Positions 2,260-23,578 of a stretch of 29,089 nt of DNA are shown piece after piece. The position numbers were made by a program, and so were the translations under genes. The number at the start of each line of letters is the position of its first letter. Positions within the stretch are counted from its first letter, which is position 1. The notes under the pieces are model-generated. The model searched no databases, was not told the DNA's origin, and saw nothing but the letters and a program-made list of their open reading frames with translations. Source of the DNA: a virus; IMG/VR virus record IMGVR_UViG_3300027784_000022, positions 1 through 29,089 of that record; one strand, given 5' to 3'.

Positions 2260-3276
2260 ATGAAAGTTCTGGGAGTAAATGCTGGAAATGGGGTTCTTTT
2301 ATACCCATTTCTACCTGAAGTTATTGCTAATATTGAACTCCGCAGTGTATTCCATACTACTGGGGATTATCAATGGCAGTTAAATTTTCCAGGTATACCA
2401 TTGATTAAAAAGCTTAATAGTGATCTCAATAATCTCCCTGATTTTACTGATGTTTCAATTATTATCTCTCATCCAGACTGCGGACATTCATCTATTCTTG
2501 CATACTCACGAGCCAAGAAATTTGGTAACCCAAAAGAGAATAAAAGTCTTACATTATTCTTTAAATCAGTGAGTTATTATCAGCCAGAGTTATTCTTAAT
2601 GGAGAATTTAACGGCATTATTAGATACCTATGGGGAAGAAGATCTGATAAATGCTTTACCCAACTATAACTTGGTTTTCCATCACTTATCCGTATCAGAA
2701 TTGGGTAACTCACAAATTAATCGAAAGCGCTTGATACTTATAGGTATAAGACGGGATTTACCTAAATTTATCCCAAAAATCTTTCACAACATCTACCCTG
2801 TTAACCAGTTACAATTTTCCGGAGCATTATTGAAAGGGTTAAATGACCTTAATCCACATATAGGACATATAAGAGAGGATGAAAATGATATAATTACTTT
2901 GTATGCTGGTTATAAAGATGTTATAAGCAATATCCGTAATGAATGGGTAACTAAAAGGGCTTCTGAAAAGCGTTGGAAAACTCCGGATAAAAAATTCACT
3001 ACAGCACCAGGAGTATATAAAAACCTGGAGTTTGAGTACCCTGCTACAGTAAGGCCTACTAATCGACAATATAACCACAAAGGAGAGATGATGAGTCCTC
3101 GTGAATTGGCTCGTATTCAAGGGATTCCAGATGATTTTGAGCTTTACTACGACACCAATAAACATAAATACTGTATAAATAAGGGCCGAGTGACGGTGAC
3201 AAAAACACCTCCTTATGAGGTAGGTATTTGGTTCTTTAGGCAAGTGATGAAAATAAGAAAGTTTTTATGGCCTTAA
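2260..3276 (+). CDS. C5-cytosine-specific DNA methyltransferase (phage PDC type)
   Basis: 338 aa; transfers a methyl group from S-adenosylmethionine to C5 of cytosine in DNA. The motifs appear in order: motif I-like VLGVNAGNGV (3-12), motif IV HPDCGHSS with the presumed catalytic Cys74 (71-78), motif VI MENL (114-117), motif VIII QINRKRLILIG (152-162), and motif IX MMSPRELARIQGIPDDF near 3088-3140. In motif IV the residue before the Cys is Asp, where PCQ enzymes have Pro; I recall a phage subgroup with PDC-x-H-F-S, and this fits it. The C-terminal motif X is degenerate (TKTPPYEVGIWF, without GN-x-V). It lies on the late strand just before terminase, so it may modify DNA shortly before packaging or protect it from restriction. 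No partner restriction gene is seen. Confidence 0.88.
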   Translation: MKVLGVNAGNGVLLYPFLPEVIANIELRSVFHTTGDYQWQLNFPGIPLIKKLNSDLNNLPDFTDVSIIISHPDCGHSSILAYSRAKKFGNPKENKSLTLFFKSVSYYQPELFLMENLTALLDTYGEEDLINALPNYNLVFHHLSVSELGNSQINRKRLILIGIRRDLPKFIPKIFHNIYPVNQLQFSGALLKGLNDLNPHIGHIREDENDIITLYAGYKDVISNIRNEWVTKRASEKRWKTPDKKFTTAPGVYKNLEFEYPATVRPTNRQYNHKGEMMSPRELARIQGIPDDFELYYDTNKHKYCINKGRVTVTKTPPYEVGIWFFRQVMKIRKFLWP

Positions 3277-10201: not shown

Positions 10202-10993
10202 ATGGGTGCTCAATTTGAATTTACCAAATCGGGGTTAGTTGTAGATTTTACTAATAAGTCCACAAATAACCCCGATTCTTTTTTATGGGATTTTGGAGAT
10301 GGGAATACTTCTAATCTTGAAAACCCGCAACATACGTATGCAAGTACAGGTTTTTATACTGTAACCTTAACTACCACTTTAGGTGAGGTTACTGAAGATG
10401 TATCTCATACAGTTGGTGTAAATGAGGATGAAACTTTATTAATTACTGATGATCCTCTTATCGATTTGGTAAAACAATATCTACCAACAGAAATTAGTGA
10501 TTCTAATGAGACTTTTGGATTTGAGATTAACTCAGCCATTAAAAAATGGCAATTATTCTTACAACCGCTAGTTAATCGAGAGATATCCAATGAGCAAGTT
10601 TATAATCAATCAGCTTTTATTGCACTAGAGAATTACCTGATTGCTTCATTAGTTGCCCGAGAGTTAATAATTAATGCAAGTAATCAATACTTGTCTACGT
10701 TAAATCAACATGCAGTTGATAAAGGCTCCGAACAAGGTGCTGGACAAGAGGTAAAGAGTATTCAAACTGGTCCCTCTAGAGCTGAATGGTTTTCTTCTTC
10801 CGAATTATGGCAAAATATTTTAAAAGAAGGAGGACAATTGCACCTTCTTACAAATTCGATTTGTTCATTAGCTCGTAGATTAAGTATTTACCTCCATTTT
10901 TGCGGGGCTCCGGCTAAACCTACAATTGTACCCAGAGTTTATAGGGACCCAGATCCTGTAATTACTAATCCTTTTGATAAAACCCGGTACTAA
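10202..10993 (+). CDS. head-tail adaptor protein with N-terminal PKD domain
   Basis: 263 aa. Residues 1-73 form a clear PKD (polycystic kidney disease) immunoglobulin-like domain: FLWDFGDGNTSN (27-38), ENPQHTYASTGFYTVTL (40-56). Residues about 80-263 are helical (DPLIDLVKQYLP, INSAIKKWQLFLQPLVN, FIALENYLIASLVARELI, SICSLARRLSIYLHFCG) and by position act as the head-tail adaptor of the SPP1 gp15 / HK97 gp6 type beneath the portal. PKD domains usually lie on surfaces and bind carbohydrate or protein, so here the domain would decorate the neck. The PKD call is confident; the adaptor role rests mainly on gene order. It overlaps the next gene by one base (TAATG). Confidence 0.75.
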   Translation: MGAQFEFTKSGLVVDFTNKSTNNPDSFLWDFGDGNTSNLENPQHTYASTGFYTVTLTTTLGEVTEDVSHTVGVNEDETLLITDDPLIDLVKQYLPTEISDSNETFGFEINSAIKKWQLFLQPLVNREISNEQVYNQSAFIALENYLIASLVARELIINASNQYLSTLNQHAVDKGSEQGAGQEVKSIQTGPSRAEWFSSSELWQNILKEGGQLHLLTNSICSLARRLSIYLHFCGAPAKPTIVPRVYRDPDPVITNPFDKTRY

Positions 10994-12127: not shown

Positions 12128-12802
12128 ATGAGTGTTTATGATGTACCTTTATTAAATACTCAAGAATTGGTAGAGAGAACCATTTACCACTCTATGAGAA
12201 AACACTGTGTATCTAGGGGATACTTACCAGATATTTATTCCTTTGATCAAAATGCTCAAGGTTATAGGGAATATCTTGAGGCTTTTTCGGCAATTGTTGA
12301 TGATAAAGGATTTGCCATTGAGGTATTTAATAGTGGACCTCCTACTGAAAGAGAGATGAAGCAAGTCCCTCGATTAATTTTAGATATACAAGGATTTGTA
12401 CCCGGTTCTATTGGAGGAGATCAAAGTCAACAATATGAATGGAGCGAAGAACACAATAAATATTATGGATTTATAGCTCCCCCTACTACTTCAGATCTTT
12501 ATTTCAATATCCATATTGTTGCTAGCAATGCAACTCAGGATCGTATAATGAATGCCTTAGTTTCATTAGCCGTTCCTAGAAGAGGCTATTTACCATTATA
12601 TAACGCAGAAGATAATTTTTTATTTACTAATTTTTTAACTTATGTTCCTGTAAATGAATATAAGACCCCAGGTATAATGGAAACCATGATACGTTATGTT
12701 TGCCCTGATTTGATTGAAGTTGCTGATATTCCAAATACTGATCCAATCATTCCGCCTTTAACCTATTTCCAAATTGATCTAGAAGAGGGCGATAAACCTT
12801 AA
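12128..12802 (+). CDS. probable tail terminator protein
   Basis: 224 aa, mixed alpha/beta. It begins with a helix (NTQELVERTIYHSMRKHC), then strands (RLILDIQGFVPGS, LYFNIHIVASNATQDRIMNALVSLAVP) and ends with METMIRYVCPDLIEVADIP. Position between gp10-like and sheath genes fits the tail terminator, which caps the tube and sheath and joins the head; the strand-helix pattern DLYFNIHIVASN followed by a helix with R-I-M-N-A-L is like terminator folds. I do not recognise a specific family, so the name is partly inferred from gene order. Confidence 0.5.
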   Translation: MSVYDVPLLNTQELVERTIYHSMRKHCVSRGYLPDIYSFDQNAQGYREYLEAFSAIVDDKGFAIEVFNSGPPTEREMKQVPRLILDIQGFVPGSIGGDQSQQYEWSEEHNKYYGFIAPPTTSDLYFNIHIVASNATQDRIMNALVSLAVPRRGYLPLYNAEDNFLFTNFLTYVPVNEYKTPGIMETMIRYVCPDLIEVADIPNTDPIIPPLTYFQIDLEEGDKP

Positions 12803-12807
12803 TTATT

Positions 12808-13032
12808 ATGGCACACATTGAAAAAAGAAAAATCACGTTAAAAACCCAACCCCAAGCTCCTAAGAAAACAGAGAAAAAAGAGGAAGAGTTCATTGAGTCA
12901 ACTCATGAAATTATTCCCAGGAAAACTAAAGGGTGGTACGATGTCGTTGATCAGGATGGTAAATTGGTTAATGATCAAGCCCTTAGAAAACAGCAAGCTG
13001 AGCAGTTAAAATTAGACATGCGTAAGACCTGA
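12808..13032 (+). CDS. small charged protein upstream of the glycosyltransferase/ATP-grasp gene
   Basis: 74 aa, rich in Lys, Glu and Gln. The N-terminal part (KTQPQAPKKTEKKEEEF) looks disordered; the middle GWYDVVDQDGKLVNDQALR may form a beta hairpin; a helix rich in Gln and Lys ends it. No family is recognised. Its TGA stop overlaps the ATG of the following fusion enzyme by one base (TGATG), so the two are probably translated together. Whether it is a partner, a substrate, or an unrelated tail factor cannot be told from sequence. Confidence 0.6.
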   Translation: MAHIEKRKITLKTQPQAPKKTEKKEEEFIESTHEIIPRKTKGWYDVVDQDGKLVNDQALRKQQAEQLKLDMRKT

Positions 13033-14567
13033 TGTTAAAGGTAGTTTGTTTTAAATGGAAACATACAAGTGGCTATAAGTTGGCTTCTTTGTATAATATT
13101 GAAGGGTATACTGCTGGCCATGTTAATAATTTACACAAGGCTGTTTCATTGAATTTATCCATACCTCATGAATTTATCTGTATTACGGATGATCCAACAG
13201 ACATAAATTGTAAAACTATCCCTTTATGGGATAAATGCCGAGAATATGGAGGTTGTTATAACCGATTATATGTTTTCAGTAAAGATATGAAGGATATAAT
13301 TGGGGATCGGTTTGTTTGTATTGATTTAGATTGTGTAATAACCGGAAATTTAGATCCTTTATTTGATCATGATTTGGATTTTGTAATAAATTCATATTAT
13401 GGACCTCAACCTAAACAATACTATAACGGAGGGTTATTTCTGATGGATGCTGGGGTTCATGATAATGTATGGACTGAATTTGAGAAAGATATACCAGGTA
13501 ATATTGAATTACTTGAAGAAGAGAGAAAACAGGGAAACTTACTGGGTACTGATCAGGCTTGGATAAGCCATATTTTGGGGCCGGAGAAAGCCGTTTATGA
13601 GTGTGAAGATGGAGTTATTCCTTATCGTTTATTAAAAAGGCGGGGTAAACAATCTATTTTACCCGACCATGCAAAAATGGTATTTTTTGCTGGAAATGCC
13701 GATCCTAGTACGGTTCAGTTTACCGATAAATGGGTAAGAGAGTATTGGAGGTGTAATTACATTATAAAAGAAAACGGTTTTGACCAATTAGAAACCTTGA
13801 GTCAAAAGGTCCAATGGTTAAAACATTTCTATTATAATCCCATTATGCCCGATATTGTGGATAAAATAAAAGTGAATGATTATGTCATTGAAAAGCTGGG
13901 AGAAGAAGTAGCTAATTCACTTTTTATACCCACTTTGTCAGTTGGTAACAATGTACATGAGATACCATTTGAAGATATACCTCAACCGTACATTGTTAAA
14001 CCAACTCATTTATCAGGTGCTTTTATTCGGGTAGATGGGGATTTAAAGAAAAAGTTACCTTTTATTAAACATTACGGACATAAATGGTTAAATACAACTT
14101 ATGGCCATAAAAGTAATGAATGGGTTTATTATAACCTTAAACCCCAATTAATGGTACAAAAACATTTACCATTAAACAACGGGTATTTACCCGAAGATTA
14201 TAAACTTCACATGATTAACGGTAAATGCGAGTTTATTCAAATTTATTCTGAAAGACCTTTAGTAGGTAAAGGAGAAGCGAAGCAACTAAATTATACCCCT
14301 GACTGGGAGTTAATTCCCGTTTTAAATCATAAATATGAAGCCGGGAAACCTTTACCCAAACCCCCTGCTTTAAATAGGGCGATTGAAATTGCTGAAAAAT
14401 TGGCTGAACCCTTTGATTATGTAAGAGTAGACTTATTTTTATTTGATCACCAAATATACTTTGGGGAGCTTACCTTTTTTCCTCATGGAGGTCATTTTAA
14501 CTTTACACCAGAAACATTTGATTATGAGATGGGAAGTAAGTTAAAATTGATTAAATCCGTAAGTTAA
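13032..14567 (+). CDS. bifunctional glycosyltransferase (GT8-like) / TupA-like ATP-grasp ligase
   Basis: 511 aa, two enzyme domains. Residues 1-245 resemble a retaining GT-A glycosyltransferase near family GT8: VNNLHKAVSLNLSIPHEFIC, FVCIDLDCVITGNLDPLF with the DxD metal site D98/D100, YNGGLFLMDAG (131-141), GTDQAWIS (172-179) and MVFFAGNADP (216-225). Residues about 265-511 resemble the TupA-like ATP-grasp family: DKIKVNDYVIEKLGEE (277-292), PYIVKPTHLSGAFIRV with K323, MVQKHL, DYKLHMINGK (389-398), and VRVDLFLF...FGELTFFPHGG with likely Mg ligands D467 and E479. ATP-grasp enzymes join a carboxylate to an amine via an acyl-phosphate; TupA works in teichuronopeptide synthesis. The gene is coupled to its upstream neighbour and lies just before the sheath gene. 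The target is unknown: virion proteins, host surface or DNA are all possible. Codon use is like its neighbours. Confidence 0.85.
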   Translation: MLKVVCFKWKHTSGYKLASLYNIEGYTAGHVNNLHKAVSLNLSIPHEFICITDDPTDINCKTIPLWDKCREYGGCYNRLYVFSKDMKDIIGDRFVCIDLDCVITGNLDPLFDHDLDFVINSYYGPQPKQYYNGGLFLMDAGVHDNVWTEFEKDIPGNIELLEEERKQGNLLGTDQAWISHILGPEKAVYECEDGVIPYRLLKRRGKQSILPDHAKMVFFAGNADPSTVQFTDKWVREYWRCNYIIKENGFDQLETLSQKVQWLKHFYYNPIMPDIVDKIKVNDYVIEKLGEEVANSLFIPTLSVGNNVHEIPFEDIPQPYIVKPTHLSGAFIRVDGDLKKKLPFIKHYGHKWLNTTYGHKSNEWVYYNLKPQLMVQKHLPLNNGYLPEDYKLHMINGKCEFIQIYSERPLVGKGEAKQLNYTPDWELIPVLNHKYEAGKPLPKPPALNRAIEIAEKLAEPFDYVRVDLFLFDHQIYFGELTFFPHGGHFNFTPETFDYEMGSKLKLIKSVS

Positions 14568-14613: not shown

Positions 14614-16095
14614 ATGTCAACTCCTGCTCCACGTGTACAGCATACCTTAGTCGATAGGACGCAAACTACTCCAGATCTTGTTTCTGGAATAGCTTTTGTG
14701 CAAGGTATTACTAAGCGGGGTCCCATAAATGATCCAAAACATTTGATTTATAGTTGGGATCATTTTGTTACCTTGTTTGGTGGATTAATATCTACCTCTG
14801 ATTTTCCTCTTCATTGTAAAGAGATGTTAGATCGCGGGGTAATTCTTAGAGTTAACAGTATTAAAGTTAATGCTGTAAATGCCTCTGTAGATATCCAAAA
14901 TTCCGATAGTATAGCTCCAAGTACCCTGTTTACTTTGGAGAGTAAATACCCGGGTGAGGATTATAATAATCTTTCAATCACTACTAGTGAACCTACGGAT
15001 AGTGAACTTGGGGATTTTAATATGGAGATCTCATTTAATAACGGTGAATATGTGGAAACATATGAAAATGTAACCGTGGGAGAAGATGAGATCATTACCA
15101 CCCTTGCCAATTCTAAATGGGTTCAATTACAATCAATGGGAGATCTATCTGGTTTATCAGGTTCAGATTTAATTCCCGCTTTCTCAGAAACGGCCTTTAC
15201 TTCTGGGGATGATGGGGATGCTGAATTGGATACTGCATTAGCGGATTTTTCTGCCTTTGATGAATATGAGGATAGTATTTTTCTATCCAATATTTGTGAT
15301 TACCCTGCTGATGCTGTGGTTTTAGCCACAGCAGGAGAGGCTTATGCTGCTTCAAGAAAAGACCTTCGGTATTATCATAGTATCCCCACTTCAGAGGATT
15401 CCAATACTATTATTACTGCACGAAAAGATCTTCCTTATTCACGGTGGATTTCTTATACTTCCGGAGGTTGGGTGATTAGCCACCCTGAAACAGGTGAACA
15501 AGTGGCTATTAGTGAAGTTTCTCACTTCATTGCCAATGGCGTCCAAACAATTAACCTGGAGGATTGGTGGCTTTCTTTTAGCGGGCCTCAAAAAACAGTT
15601 CCTGGAGTACTTAAGCCGGAAGTTAATTTTGGTGGAAAGGCTAAGTTCCAAGAATTGGATATGTTAAACCGGGCAAATGTTAACATGGCAATTAACCGGT
15701 ATGGGTCCAACATATTCTGGGGTAATTTCTCCGGTCAACGGGAAAATACCCATACTAAATTTATCAGTACCAATAACCTGATTATCTATATGAATAAGAG
15801 CTTGGGTCCGGTACTTGAAGAATATATCGAACAACCATTGGATATTCCATTGTTCCGTACTATTTATCATTCCGTTACTCCATTTTTGGATAGCCTAGTA
15901 ACAGGTAGAGCAATCTTTACCTATGATTGGTTAGGTGATCAAGATGTTACTAATTTGGATGAGCTTAAGGTTAATACGGCGGTGGATATCCAAAATGGTA
16001 TTTATAAGGTAAGACTACCTATTACCCGGATTAATCCCTTGCAAAAATTTAACCTAGTTATTGAGCTTTCTCCGGCTGGGGTAACTATTGAATAA
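14614..16095 (+). CDS. tail sheath protein
   Basis: 493 aa; polymerises around the tube and contracts to drive it into the cell. The N-terminal APRVQHTLVDRT, FVQGITKRGPINDP (28-41) and DHFVTLFGG (49-57) match the start of many sheath proteins (a 'G-x-x-x-x-G-P...P' loop and an 'F...F-G' helix). The C-terminal LVTGRAIFTYDWLGDQDVTN to GIYKVRLPITRINPLQKFNL is the conserved sheath core that interlocks subunits. It is followed by the tail tube gene, as expected. The start is A/T-rich (GAAATAATTATG). Length is normal for myovirus sheath proteins. Confidence 0.9.
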   Translation: MSTPAPRVQHTLVDRTQTTPDLVSGIAFVQGITKRGPINDPKHLIYSWDHFVTLFGGLISTSDFPLHCKEMLDRGVILRVNSIKVNAVNASVDIQNSDSIAPSTLFTLESKYPGEDYNNLSITTSEPTDSELGDFNMEISFNNGEYVETYENVTVGEDEIITTLANSKWVQLQSMGDLSGLSGSDLIPAFSETAFTSGDDGDAELDTALADFSAFDEYEDSIFLSNICDYPADAVVLATAGEAYAASRKDLRYYHSIPTSEDSNTIITARKDLPYSRWISYTSGGWVISHPETGEQVAISEVSHFIANGVQTINLEDWWLSFSGPQKTVPGVLKPEVNFGGKAKFQELDMLNRANVNMAINRYGSNIFWGNFSGQRENTHTKFISTNNLIIYMNKSLGPVLEEYIEQPLDIPLFRTIYHSVTPFLDSLVTGRAIFTYDWLGDQDVTNLDELKVNTAVDIQNGIYKVRLPITRINPLQKFNLVIELSPAGVTIE

Positions 16096-20547: not shown

Positions 20548-20798
20548 GTGCATATAACCAATTCCTTGTAGCAAAGTTTAGTAATGGGCAACTATCTTTG
20601 GATAGGCACCCTTATCAATATCGCCCTTCTTCAAAGGATAGAACCCATATCATTGTAGAAGGTGAGAGACTTGATACCATTGCTTTTAAGTATTATGATA
20701 ATTCCACATTATGGTATATATTAGCCGATGTAAACGGGATCATTAATCCTTTTGATCTCACAATTGGTGATGAAATTCTAATCCCCGAGATCTCATGA
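20544..20798 (+). CDS. LysM-domain baseplate protein (gpX / gp53-like)
   Basis: 84 aa. Residues about 33-82 are a LysM-like domain: HIIVEGERLDTIAFKYYDNSTLWY...ILADVNGIINPFDLTIGDEILIPE, with the typical 'G-D/E-x-L-x-x-I-A-x-x-Y' start and 'N...P...I-x-x-G-x-x-I-x-I-P' end. Proteins of this size and place (P2 gpX, T4 gp53 region) sit in the baseplate hub or wedge and may contact peptidoglycan or other baseplate proteins. It overlaps the previous and next genes by four bases each (ATGA), so the three are probably translated as a unit. Confidence 0.8.
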   Translation: MSAYNQFLVAKFSNGQLSLDRHPYQYRPSSKDRTHIIVEGERLDTIAFKYYDNSTLWYILADVNGIINPFDLTIGDEILIPEIS

Positions 20799-23578
20799 AT
20801 AGTGTAATCAACCCTAAAGGATATGGTGCCCCCGTAGTGGGGCTTTTTACTATAGATGGTAAGCCTATAACATTTGCGGGGTTAAATAAGGAGGCTATCG
20901 AAAGTGAGCATTATTTAACTATTGCTGAGTGTATGTTATGGGATGATTTTGAAGAGGGGATAGAACTTTCTCTAACTCTTGAGAGTGTAAACCCCAAGTT
21001 AATTGATAGTGAATATTTTGATTATGGTAATACGATTATAATCCGCTTTGGATATATGGTAGATGAGAATATGCACTTTGGTCGAATTTACCAATTAATC
21101 GTAAAAGATCATCAAGTATCTTATGATGAGACTCAATCCTTTAGTATAGACTTTGTTGATCAAGTCACCTTTCATAGCCAAGAGAAAGATCAAAGTAATG
21201 AACCTCAAGTTTTAGAAGAAGCAAGTAAGGCGATTCTTCAGATGGAGGGGGGTGAAGATATAAATATCGATGATTACCATAAAGCCGTATTGGGAGGGGA
21301 TAAAGGTGCTCTTGAGAAATTATTTAAAGAGTTGGATAAAATTCGAAACAATTTTAAAGCTCGATCAGGGGAGTATGTTTTAAAGGTTCCAGTAAAGGAA
21401 TTTGGAGCTAGATCTTATCTTTATTTTCCGACGGTTAAAGATGTTCGAGAATATTTTACTCAAGATAGCGGAAGACAACAATATGCCGGAGAAGGTCATT
21501 GGTCTTGGTTAGTTGAAGAGAGGGAGGGAGTAAGTATGAGAAATAGGTTAACAAATGAACAAATCTTTAACCTATATGCTGTTAGAAAAGATGAAAGGAG
21601 TTTTTGGTCCAAGTTAAAGGGGCCAGTTTGGCTACATTCTAAAGATGCTGTAGATTTATATGGATATGCTATCAATAGTTCAAAAGGGGAAAAACTATGG
21701 CGGAAGGAATTAGAGAAAATTGGAATTTTAGATAAATTAAAAGAAATAAGATACTTGGGTATGCCTAACCCCAGTATTTTATATGATAGTAATGGTGAAT
21801 TTGACCCTGGTCGGTTGGATGAATTCTTAGAGGAATTTATGGATTCAGAGGTACTGGAATATGTACAAGCCGATATGAATAAATCGGGTTATAACAATTT
21901 AAAAGAGTATTTAATTAAGAAGTTTCCGGATCATAATTATGTTGATAAGGCTGATGGTAATGGGCCTGTTCTAGTTAAAAAAGACACAGAGCAACAAGCT
22001 TTTATGGATTTGGTATATAAAGGCGGTTCTGGGGATTTATTAAAAATCCGATTTGATACTGATTTCCAGGAGTCTGAAGTTTCTCAATCAGAGGCAACTA
22101 TTGTGGATCCAGAAACGGGAGAAGTTACCAAACTTTCTCAAATACACAGTAATCAAACTGGTAATGAGGAATTAAATCCTACTAAACGATATGTTGATGA
22201 TGTAGTAGATGCCATTTCTAATGGGGAAATGCCTCCGGCTCTAGATACCGAATATGAGGCGATCAATAAACCTGGTTTTACTTATGGGCATGATAGACCT
22301 GCTTATCAAGACAGAGATGGTAATTTTGTACCAGCCAGAGATAGTGCAAGGCGTATAAAACGTATAGCTCCAACAACTTTTTATAGTAAACCCGGTACGG
22401 TTGAGGAAATATTAAGGGAAATTGATAGTCGAAAAGAAGATAAAAACCTTAAAAGAATTATCGCAGATGCAGAGATACTGGGTAACCCTTATGTAAATAC
22501 GGGACAAGTGTTTAATGTAAAAGGAGTAGCTCATAGGTTTACAGGTCGATATTTTGCTCTTTCTGTTCAACATAAAATTGATCCTAATTCGGGATATGTT
22601 ACTACAATTGAATTAGGGAAAATACCTAAACAAAAAGTTCATGGAATTGTTATAGAAACTGAAGATGAGACAGAGGTTAAACGGGAAACTAAACGATGGA
22701 AGTTAAGGAAATCTAGAGCAGTACTTGTGGACGAAAATCGTCAAGATGTTAGGTCAGAGCCGATCATGAGAGTGGGAAGGGATAATCACGTATTCTACTC
22801 AACAAACGCATTGGCTCCTTTTATAATGACACCGGAAGATAAGATTATCCCTAATCATCATGTAGACTTTGATTTAGATATACTAGAAGGAGCTTTTGAA
22901 GACTTTATAAAATCGGAAAACGAAAAAGATCAACAGTTAAGGGATTGGGGTATTGATGTTTCTAAACCTTTTGAAATTAAAGAAACTCCTGAAGGTTTAT
23001 TAAAGGATGCCTCATTAGATCGTATTGAAGAAGAGGAAGAGCGGGTGGATCGCTTTAGTAAATCGTTACCTTATAGAGATTCTGTTGATGAGATGACAGA
23101 ATTTTTAGAAACTCGGAATGTGGGTTACCGGGCTCTATTAATCAGGAAGCCCCAAATACCTGATTATTTATTATTAGCGGAAACTGATTTAGCGGCTAAA
23201 CCCATCCAGGGAACTATCGTAGGTTATAAGACAATCGGAACATTAAAATTATACAAAGATACTCAAGTAGTCTTTGAATGTTATACTCTAGAACCCCCGT
23301 GGAAGAATAATCAAAGGTTTGAAAGCCGCATTCCTGGAGGTCAATATGAAGTAATGCCTCGTTTTAGTTTGAATTATGGCCACCATTTTCATATCAAAAA
23401 TGTTAAGGACAGAACGATGATTTTAATCCATAGAGGTAATCGTGTGGGAAATACTGAAGGTTGTATATTGGTGGGTATGGGGTTAAATGAAAAAGAGAAT
23501 TTGGTTGATTCGGCGAAAGCTTTAAATAAACTCAATCAACATGTTGCCGGAGTAAAATTCACAATTAATATCATATAA
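20795..23578 (+). CDS. baseplate hub protein with large insertion and C-terminal DUF5675-like domain
   Basis: 927 aa. The beginning (about 1-135) has the hub pattern: GIELSLTLESVNPKLIDSEYFDYGNTIIIRFGY and the later FSIDFVDQVTF, similar to gpD/gp27-like hubs. The matching final strands GRYFALSVQHKIDPNSGYVTTIEL lie near residues 582-605. Between them is an insertion of about 400 residues that I do not recognise, with acidic, helical and unstructured parts. After a helical linker (about 610-784), residues 785-927 match DUF5675: TIGTLKLYKDTQ, CYTLEPPWKNN, RIPGGQYEVM, MILIHRGN and NTEGCILVG. H879 and C890 have the H...G-C spacing typical of YkuD-like L,D-transpeptidases, so the domain may act on the peptidoglycan. 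The catalytic role is inferred. Confidence 0.78.
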   Translation: MNSVINPKGYGAPVVGLFTIDGKPITFAGLNKEAIESEHYLTIAECMLWDDFEEGIELSLTLESVNPKLIDSEYFDYGNTIIIRFGYMVDENMHFGRIYQLIVKDHQVSYDETQSFSIDFVDQVTFHSQEKDQSNEPQVLEEASKAILQMEGGEDINIDDYHKAVLGGDKGALEKLFKELDKIRNNFKARSGEYVLKVPVKEFGARSYLYFPTVKDVREYFTQDSGRQQYAGEGHWSWLVEEREGVSMRNRLTNEQIFNLYAVRKDERSFWSKLKGPVWLHSKDAVDLYGYAINSSKGEKLWRKELEKIGILDKLKEIRYLGMPNPSILYDSNGEFDPGRLDEFLEEFMDSEVLEYVQADMNKSGYNNLKEYLIKKFPDHNYVDKADGNGPVLVKKDTEQQAFMDLVYKGGSGDLLKIRFDTDFQESEVSQSEATIVDPETGEVTKLSQIHSNQTGNEELNPTKRYVDDVVDAISNGEMPPALDTEYEAINKPGFTYGHDRPAYQDRDGNFVPARDSARRIKRIAPTTFYSKPGTVEEILREIDSRKEDKNLKRIIADAEILGNPYVNTGQVFNVKGVAHRFTGRYFALSVQHKIDPNSGYVTTIELGKIPKQKVHGIVIETEDETEVKRETKRWKLRKSRAVLVDENRQDVRSEPIMRVGRDNHVFYSTNALAPFIMTPEDKIIPNHHVDFDLDILEGAFEDFIKSENEKDQQLRDWGIDVSKPFEIKETPEGLLKDASLDRIEEEEERVDRFSKSLPYRDSVDEMTEFLETRNVGYRALLIRKPQIPDYLLLAETDLAAKPIQGTIVGYKTIGTLKLYKDTQVVFECYTLEPPWKNNQRFESRIPGGQYEVMPRFSLNYGHHFHIKNVKDRTMILIHRGNRVGNTEGCILVGMGLNEKENLVDSAKALNKLNQHVAGVKFTINII

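Follow-up and report, generated by a model that had tools for sequence, protein, structure and literature searches.

The window analysed here, a 29,089-base virus record, is a fragment of a contractile-tailed phage. PHROG profiles identified in it a structural module with terminase, portal, protease, major head protein, sheath, tube, tape measure and baseplate wedge. Inside this module lies a gene for a 511-aa protein combining a glycosyltransferase (GT) with a TupA-like ATP-grasp domain. The features of the locus are the following:

12808..13032, + strand: gene of a small 74-aa protein, ending in TGA with a one-base overlap with the ATG of the 511-aa ORF
13030..13034, + strand: TGATG stop/start overlap, read in the sequence
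13032..14567, + strand: fused glycosyltransferase and TupA-like ATP-grasp protein, 511 aa, open ORF with ATG start
13032..13757, + strand: GT8-like glycosyltransferase domain, aa 1-242, DxD 98-100, GTDQ 172-175 (PHROG 1962, AF2 model, conserved residues)
13806..14543, + strand: TupA-like ATP-grasp (amidoligase) domain, aa 259-504, K323, R465, D467, E479, T481 (PF14305, conserved residues)
14614..16095, + strand: tail sheath gene, context, outside the enzyme (PHROG 23, E 4.9e-24)

A preliminary description had placed GT8-like and TupA-like motifs in one ORF, linked by TGATG to a small charged protein and situated directly before the sheath gene. All of this was confirmed. The ORF is open and carries each motif at the expected residues (DLD 98-100, YNGG 131-134, GTDQ 172-175, YIVKPTHLSG including K323, DYKLHMINGK 389-398, VRVDLF including D467 and GELTFFPHGG including E479), and the sheath gene starts 46 bp after the end of the ORF, followed by the tube gene (profile match E 9e-10). 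The TGATG overlap suggests that the small protein and the enzyme are translationally coupled. A tail terminator had also been proposed upstream; the gene at 12128-12802 has the position for it, but neither PHROG nor Pfam gave a match. PADLOC and NCBIfam gave no match. The protein has no membrane-like segment, the maximum 19-residue Kyte-Doolittle mean being 1.15.

Some other genes of the window deserve mention. A connector-region protein (10202-10993), without PHROG match, has an N-terminus resembling a PKD-type domain (WDFGDGNTSNLENPQHTYASTGFYTVTL), also present in the related myophage L008. A 927-aa tail protein (20795-23578) carries a C-terminal domain that matches PHROG 1501 (residues 813-920, E 2e-23) and looks like an enzymatic add-on. 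Directly 5' of the terminase gene, a C5-cytosine DNA methylase (PF00145, E 3e-16) is encoded at 2260-3276.

Properties of the two domains

Both halves had first been named from motifs, and profile searches now support each of them. The C-terminal half matched PF14305 (ATPgrasp_TupA) with E 6.7e-32 and 111.4 bits, against a gathering cut-off of 25, over profile positions 2-240 of 241. Residues K323, R465, D467, E479, T481 and G487 were invariant in 14 sequences from phages and including two of bacterial type. Judged from its sequence, this half is a complete TupA-like ATP-grasp domain with catalytic residues predicted to be intact. Searched against PDB chains, the TupA profile reached only E 0.2-0.7, so that by sequence there is no solved close relative. 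In two records labelled as phage (L006, L007) the TupA matches had polysaccharide genes around them, and we counted them as bacterial-type.

The N-terminal half matched the PHROG 1962 glycosyltransferase profile (E 2.5e-16, positions 12-225 of 230). Up to E 10, however, neither this half nor four relatives matched any Pfam glycosyltransferase model, GT8 included, and we therefore call the domain GT8-like and do not file it as GT8. A profile built from five GT sequences reached Skp1 galactosyltransferase and glycogenin in the PDB with E 5e-4 to 4e-3. Structure prediction was run on the GT half alone and yielded a GT8-type fold: AlphaFold2, with 70 homologues, gave a pLDDT of 96.5 and a pTM of 0.92. 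A model of the full 511 aa from a two-row alignment was discarded (pLDDT 29), and so was an alignment of 58 rows, some GT-only and some TupA-only, in which the TupA rows were misaligned onto the GT half.

The top structural neighbour of the GT model was LgtC (Z 16.5, rmsd 3.4, 210 residues), followed by Skp1 GalT (Z 16.2), glycogenin (15.9), LARGE1 (15.7), GlyE (15.6) and a GT8 from Anaerococcus (3tzt, 14.9); Foldseek ranked GT6 and GT8 together. Fold, DxD and donor-site architecture are common to the model and to LgtC, GlyE and glycogenin (Z about 15-16.5), but sequence identity to them is only 13-15%. Seven residues (D98, D100, G172, D174, Q175, G221, P225) were invariant in 70 sequences, so that, together with the TupA alignment, none of the DxD, Lys323 and D467/E479 residues was lost across homologues. 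GT8 enzymes carry a C-terminal motif HxGxxKPW. In the present family its counterpart reads FHGxxDPW by consensus, and in the window FAGNADPS (FAGxxDPS), where G and P are kept, K is replaced by D, and H and W are lost. Given the GT8-type structural neighbours and the invariant DxD, D174-Q175 and G221-P225, the model indicates that the GT half is GT8-like and that its metal/donor site is intact, while the HxGxxKPW motif is modified.

Recurrence and genomic setting

In IMG/VR, 323 relatives of the GT half were counted. TupA was missing from most of those examined, whereas the nearest ones carry it. A GT+TupA fusion of 508 aa, 49% identical by alignment, was found at L010/L011, of which L010 is a siphophage, and one of 506 aa in a siphophage contig from a Balneolales MAG (L122). 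The related myophage L008/L123 has two ORFs in inverted order, TupA then GT, between the small protein and the sheath. The two genes stand side by side at L094/L099; at L156 TupA directly follows a protein that ends in this GT; and a 948-aa protein at L019 consists of a glycan-enzyme-like N-terminus followed by GT2, TupA and GT8 segments. TupA was also fused independently to another nucleotide-sugar transferase family (PF03407 + PF14305, L095), before a terminase gene, with its TupA on a separate tree branch. The preliminary description had regarded the fusion as the window's best candidate for an undescribed system. We found no earlier account of it in the open-access papers searched, but fused, split and inverted versions do occur in other phages.

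On a tree of 74 GTs, the window, L008, L122 and L010 formed one clade (SH-aLRT 99), and the association with TupA was clustered, with 3 changes compared to a shuffled mean of 7.7. The GT tree grouped the window with L008 (97), the TupA tree with L010/L122 (81). Since the two trees disagree in this way, the split arrangement in L008 may be due to rearrangement or replacement. Order and fusion state vary while both parts stay, which argues for a joint function.

Separate GT and TupA ORFs at a further locus (L009:5998-7520) were not accepted as a true split. They differ by a single missing base from the fused copy (L122:3373-4893), reflecting either a sequencing error or a real frameshift. In L010 (659-2725), a Mu-F-like minor head protein is interrupted by an intein-like Hint domain with a DUF559/Vsr-like endonuclease.

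At 24 sampled loci, 114 proteins flank the GTs. The commonest recognised families among them were other GTs, sialyltransferase-like proteins and methyltransferases, and virion families (portal, head closure Hc1, Neck1, tail terminator) were recurrent as well; sulfotransferase genes also accompany members of this phage GT family. A named example from PHROG 1962 is TVGG_00041 of Tetraselmis viridis virus S20. It belongs to the same GT family and has a comparable location, with head closure Hc1 as its neighbour and sialyltransferase-like and methyltransferase genes alongside. It lacks an ATP-grasp partner, however, and lies at the head-neck junction and not in the interval between neck/terminator region and sheath.

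Relatives of the TupA half occurred in 38 viral loci. Only part of them lie beside this GT family and many are in glycan clusters, including phage clusters not visibly beside virion genes. Several adjoin identified virion or packaging genes, namely baseplate (L144), head morphogenesis (L151), terminase (L137 and L095), Neck1 (L093) and tape measure (L091). At L093 (3319-7178), TupA is grouped with LicD-like, GT2-like and cytidylyltransferase genes adjoining the Neck1 gene, a set which hints at, and would be consistent with, a phospho-amine decoration.

The small 74-aa protein is charged at its N-terminus; its C-terminal domain reads KGWYDVVDQDGKLVNDQALRK...AE and has the consensus GWxDVV..GK..NEKALR..A..LL. 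No Pfam or PHROG family covers the protein, and tblastn retrieved nothing from 50,697 phage records. In other phages the same domain forms the end of proteins of about 95-165 aa encoded downstream of the major capsid protein (MCP), and its G, N, A and R positions were invariant in 14 sequences. In the two myophages the cassette is at the sheath junction and the small protein is reduced to the C-terminal domain only. The next gene was part of a glycan cassette (MptE-like/sialyltransferase-like, GT8 or TupA) in 18/18 distinct loci with a readable neighbour, a count not free of ascertainment bias because the search pattern was built from cassette-linked members. From these sequence patterns, the GWxDV/NxxALR protein would be a dedicated cassette partner, with a possible role as adaptor or acceptor.

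A conserved hotspot for glycan cassettes was observed at the head-neck junction, where MptE-like/sialyltransferase-like genes directly follow the major capsid and GWxDV proteins (L106:4122-4814, with equivalents in L107-L116 and L177). In L106 this gene was assigned by PHROG 4603 (7.6e-27), in the rest of the group by visible sequence similarity. Methyltransferase, sulfotransferase and, in some cases, radical-SAM-like genes come after it.

Proposed function and alternatives

The closest precedent for the architecture is Cj1438, a capsule enzyme of C. jejuni with a GT2, a linker and a TupA-like amidoligase on one chain (PMC11800379). Its TupA-like domain uses ethanolamine-phosphate or serinol-phosphate to form an amide at the C6-carboxylate of glucuronic acid, ATP-dependent amide formation having been demonstrated for Cj1438C, and amidation must come before the fused GT adds the next sugar (PMC11800379). 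Like Cj1438, the window protein is a single polypeptide that begins with a glycosyltransferase and has its TupA-like ATP-grasp domain in the C-terminal part; unlike it, the protein has a GT8-like and not a GT2 domain, lacks the 127-aa middle domain and is encoded in a phage virion operon instead of a capsule cluster.

We propose that the 511-aa protein is a soluble enzyme with two activities that belongs to a phage module for glycan decoration. It would add a sugar and amidate a sugar carboxylate, and its target would most likely be a virion protein. We give this reading a probability of about 0.45. In a first step, the GT8-like half, with its computed fold and active site, would take a sugar from a host-supplied nucleotide sugar and transfer it. 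In a second step, the TupA-like half would use ATP to join an amine to the sugar carboxylate, as Cj1438 does, leaving a capped, amidated sugar. Candidate amines, by the same analogy, would be ethanolamine-phosphate or serinol-phosphate, and an amino acid might serve too. The sugar added by the GT half would be the very acid amidated by the TupA half, for example glucuronic acid, a single common sugar being the simplest reason for the fusion. The two-enzyme chemistry of a sugar plus an amide-linked adduct, as first suggested for this locus, is supported by folds and active-site residues that hold across homologues and by the Cj1438 precedent. Where the adduct would be placed had been left between virion and host surface. 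The most likely target appears to be a virion protein (capsid, tail tube, sheath or fibre) encoded in the same late operon, as phages that are unrelated to each other carry this GT family within their head-neck-tail operons.

The target could also be the virion while the two halves work on different sugars, the GT extending an already amidated residue like the GT2 half of Cj1438 and the host supplying the uronic acid. The reaction order in C. jejuni, with amidation preceding the next sugar from the fused GT (PMC11800379), would agree with this, as would the presence of several GTs in many cassettes. The window, however, has a single cassette enzyme, so that at least the first sugar and its acid would have to be provided by host proteins or by genes that lie beyond the 29-kb fragment, and we consider this scheme rather unlikely.

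Another alternative, weaker than the main reading and in our view unlikely, is that the enzyme acts in the cytoplasm on host capsule or LPS precursors and alters the receptor, such that other phages are excluded or rebinding of progeny is stopped. A host-surface target would fit as well, given the TupA domains in glycan clusters without visible virion neighbours. TupA-GT enzymes are known from capsule clusters (PMC11800379), TupA was found within polysaccharide clusters at L006, L007 and L149, and polysaccharide clusters of jumbo phages and cyanophages have been interpreted as host-surface modification (PMC7824862). Against this stand the GT relatives, which occupy comparable sites (portal/MCP-neck) across diverse phages, the lack of a membrane segment in the 511-aa protein and the odd placement that a late structural operon would be for an exclusion gene. 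Moreover, gtr serotype-conversion clusters typically hold a flippase and a membrane GT, whereas the 511-aa gene lies between virion genes, apparently without either, and neither flanking gene (12808-13032 or 14614-16095) is a membrane GT according to Pfam and PHROG.

Decoration of modified bases of the phage genome by GT and ligase is highly improbable: phage GTs can hypermodify DNA (Pyle 2024, as cited in PMC12619734) and the methylase gene at 2260-3276 would suit such a role, but reading the ORFs of the incomplete 29-kb window by eye brought up neither a gene for hydroxymethyl-pyrimidine synthesis nor a TET-like oxygenase, the GT-TupA pair is linked to virion and not replication genes, the partners of GT relatives are sialyltransferase-like, sulfotransferase and LicD genes, and the TupA precedents act on sugars.

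Returning to an enzyme that decorates the virion, phage precedents exist. Mycobacteriophages use GTs of their own to glycosylate capsid and tail-tube proteins (as cited in PMC12363180, PMC12619734 and PMC11256854), the work on Che8 and Corndog being that of Freeman 2023 (as cited in PMC12363180 and PMC12619734). The window protein shares with these that it is a phage-encoded GT. No homology to Che8 gp110 was found (different PHROG, hhalign probability 0.1); Che8 gp108-110 belong to PHROGs 8858, 1721 and 854, not 1962, and no TupA partner is annotated in the Che8 region that we read. The parts themselves, the GT-TupA fusion in capsule synthesis and the glycosylation of phage virions are already known. 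The combination of a GT8-like domain with TupA, recurrent in virion operons together with a dedicated small protein, may be new: the open-access papers searched contain no description of it, a weak sign that none exists.

A wider reading, tentative and somewhat doubtful, is that diverse tailed phages share a self-contained module for virion glycosylation. In it, a dedicated small GWxDV/NxxALR protein would act as acceptor or carrier, and enzymes that can be exchanged for one another (GT8, sialyltransferase-like, GT2, methyltransferase, sulfotransferase, TupA amidoligase) would furnish the particle with a glycan that is amidated or sulfated; the window would contain a minimal two-gene version, moved from the head-neck to the tail-sheath junction. 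Phages that differ widely have relatives of the enzyme pair among their particle-building genes, a recurrence suggesting that self-decoration of the particle with elaborate sugars is common to many phages. Virion glycosylation of bacterial viruses was described for a few mycobacteriophages in 2023. If the module indeed decorates virions, the phenomenon would be far more widespread and, with amide-capped and sulfated sugars, chemically richer than in those cases. The known means by which phages modify their particles would then include an amidoligase, and a compact enzyme pair would be at hand for testing how phages alter the recognition, stability and adsorption of their particles.

Separately, a glycan cassette with a GWxDV-type small protein was observed at L124 (832-6830), on a contig binned to a Nanohaloarchaea MAG that is possibly a misbinned phage contig.
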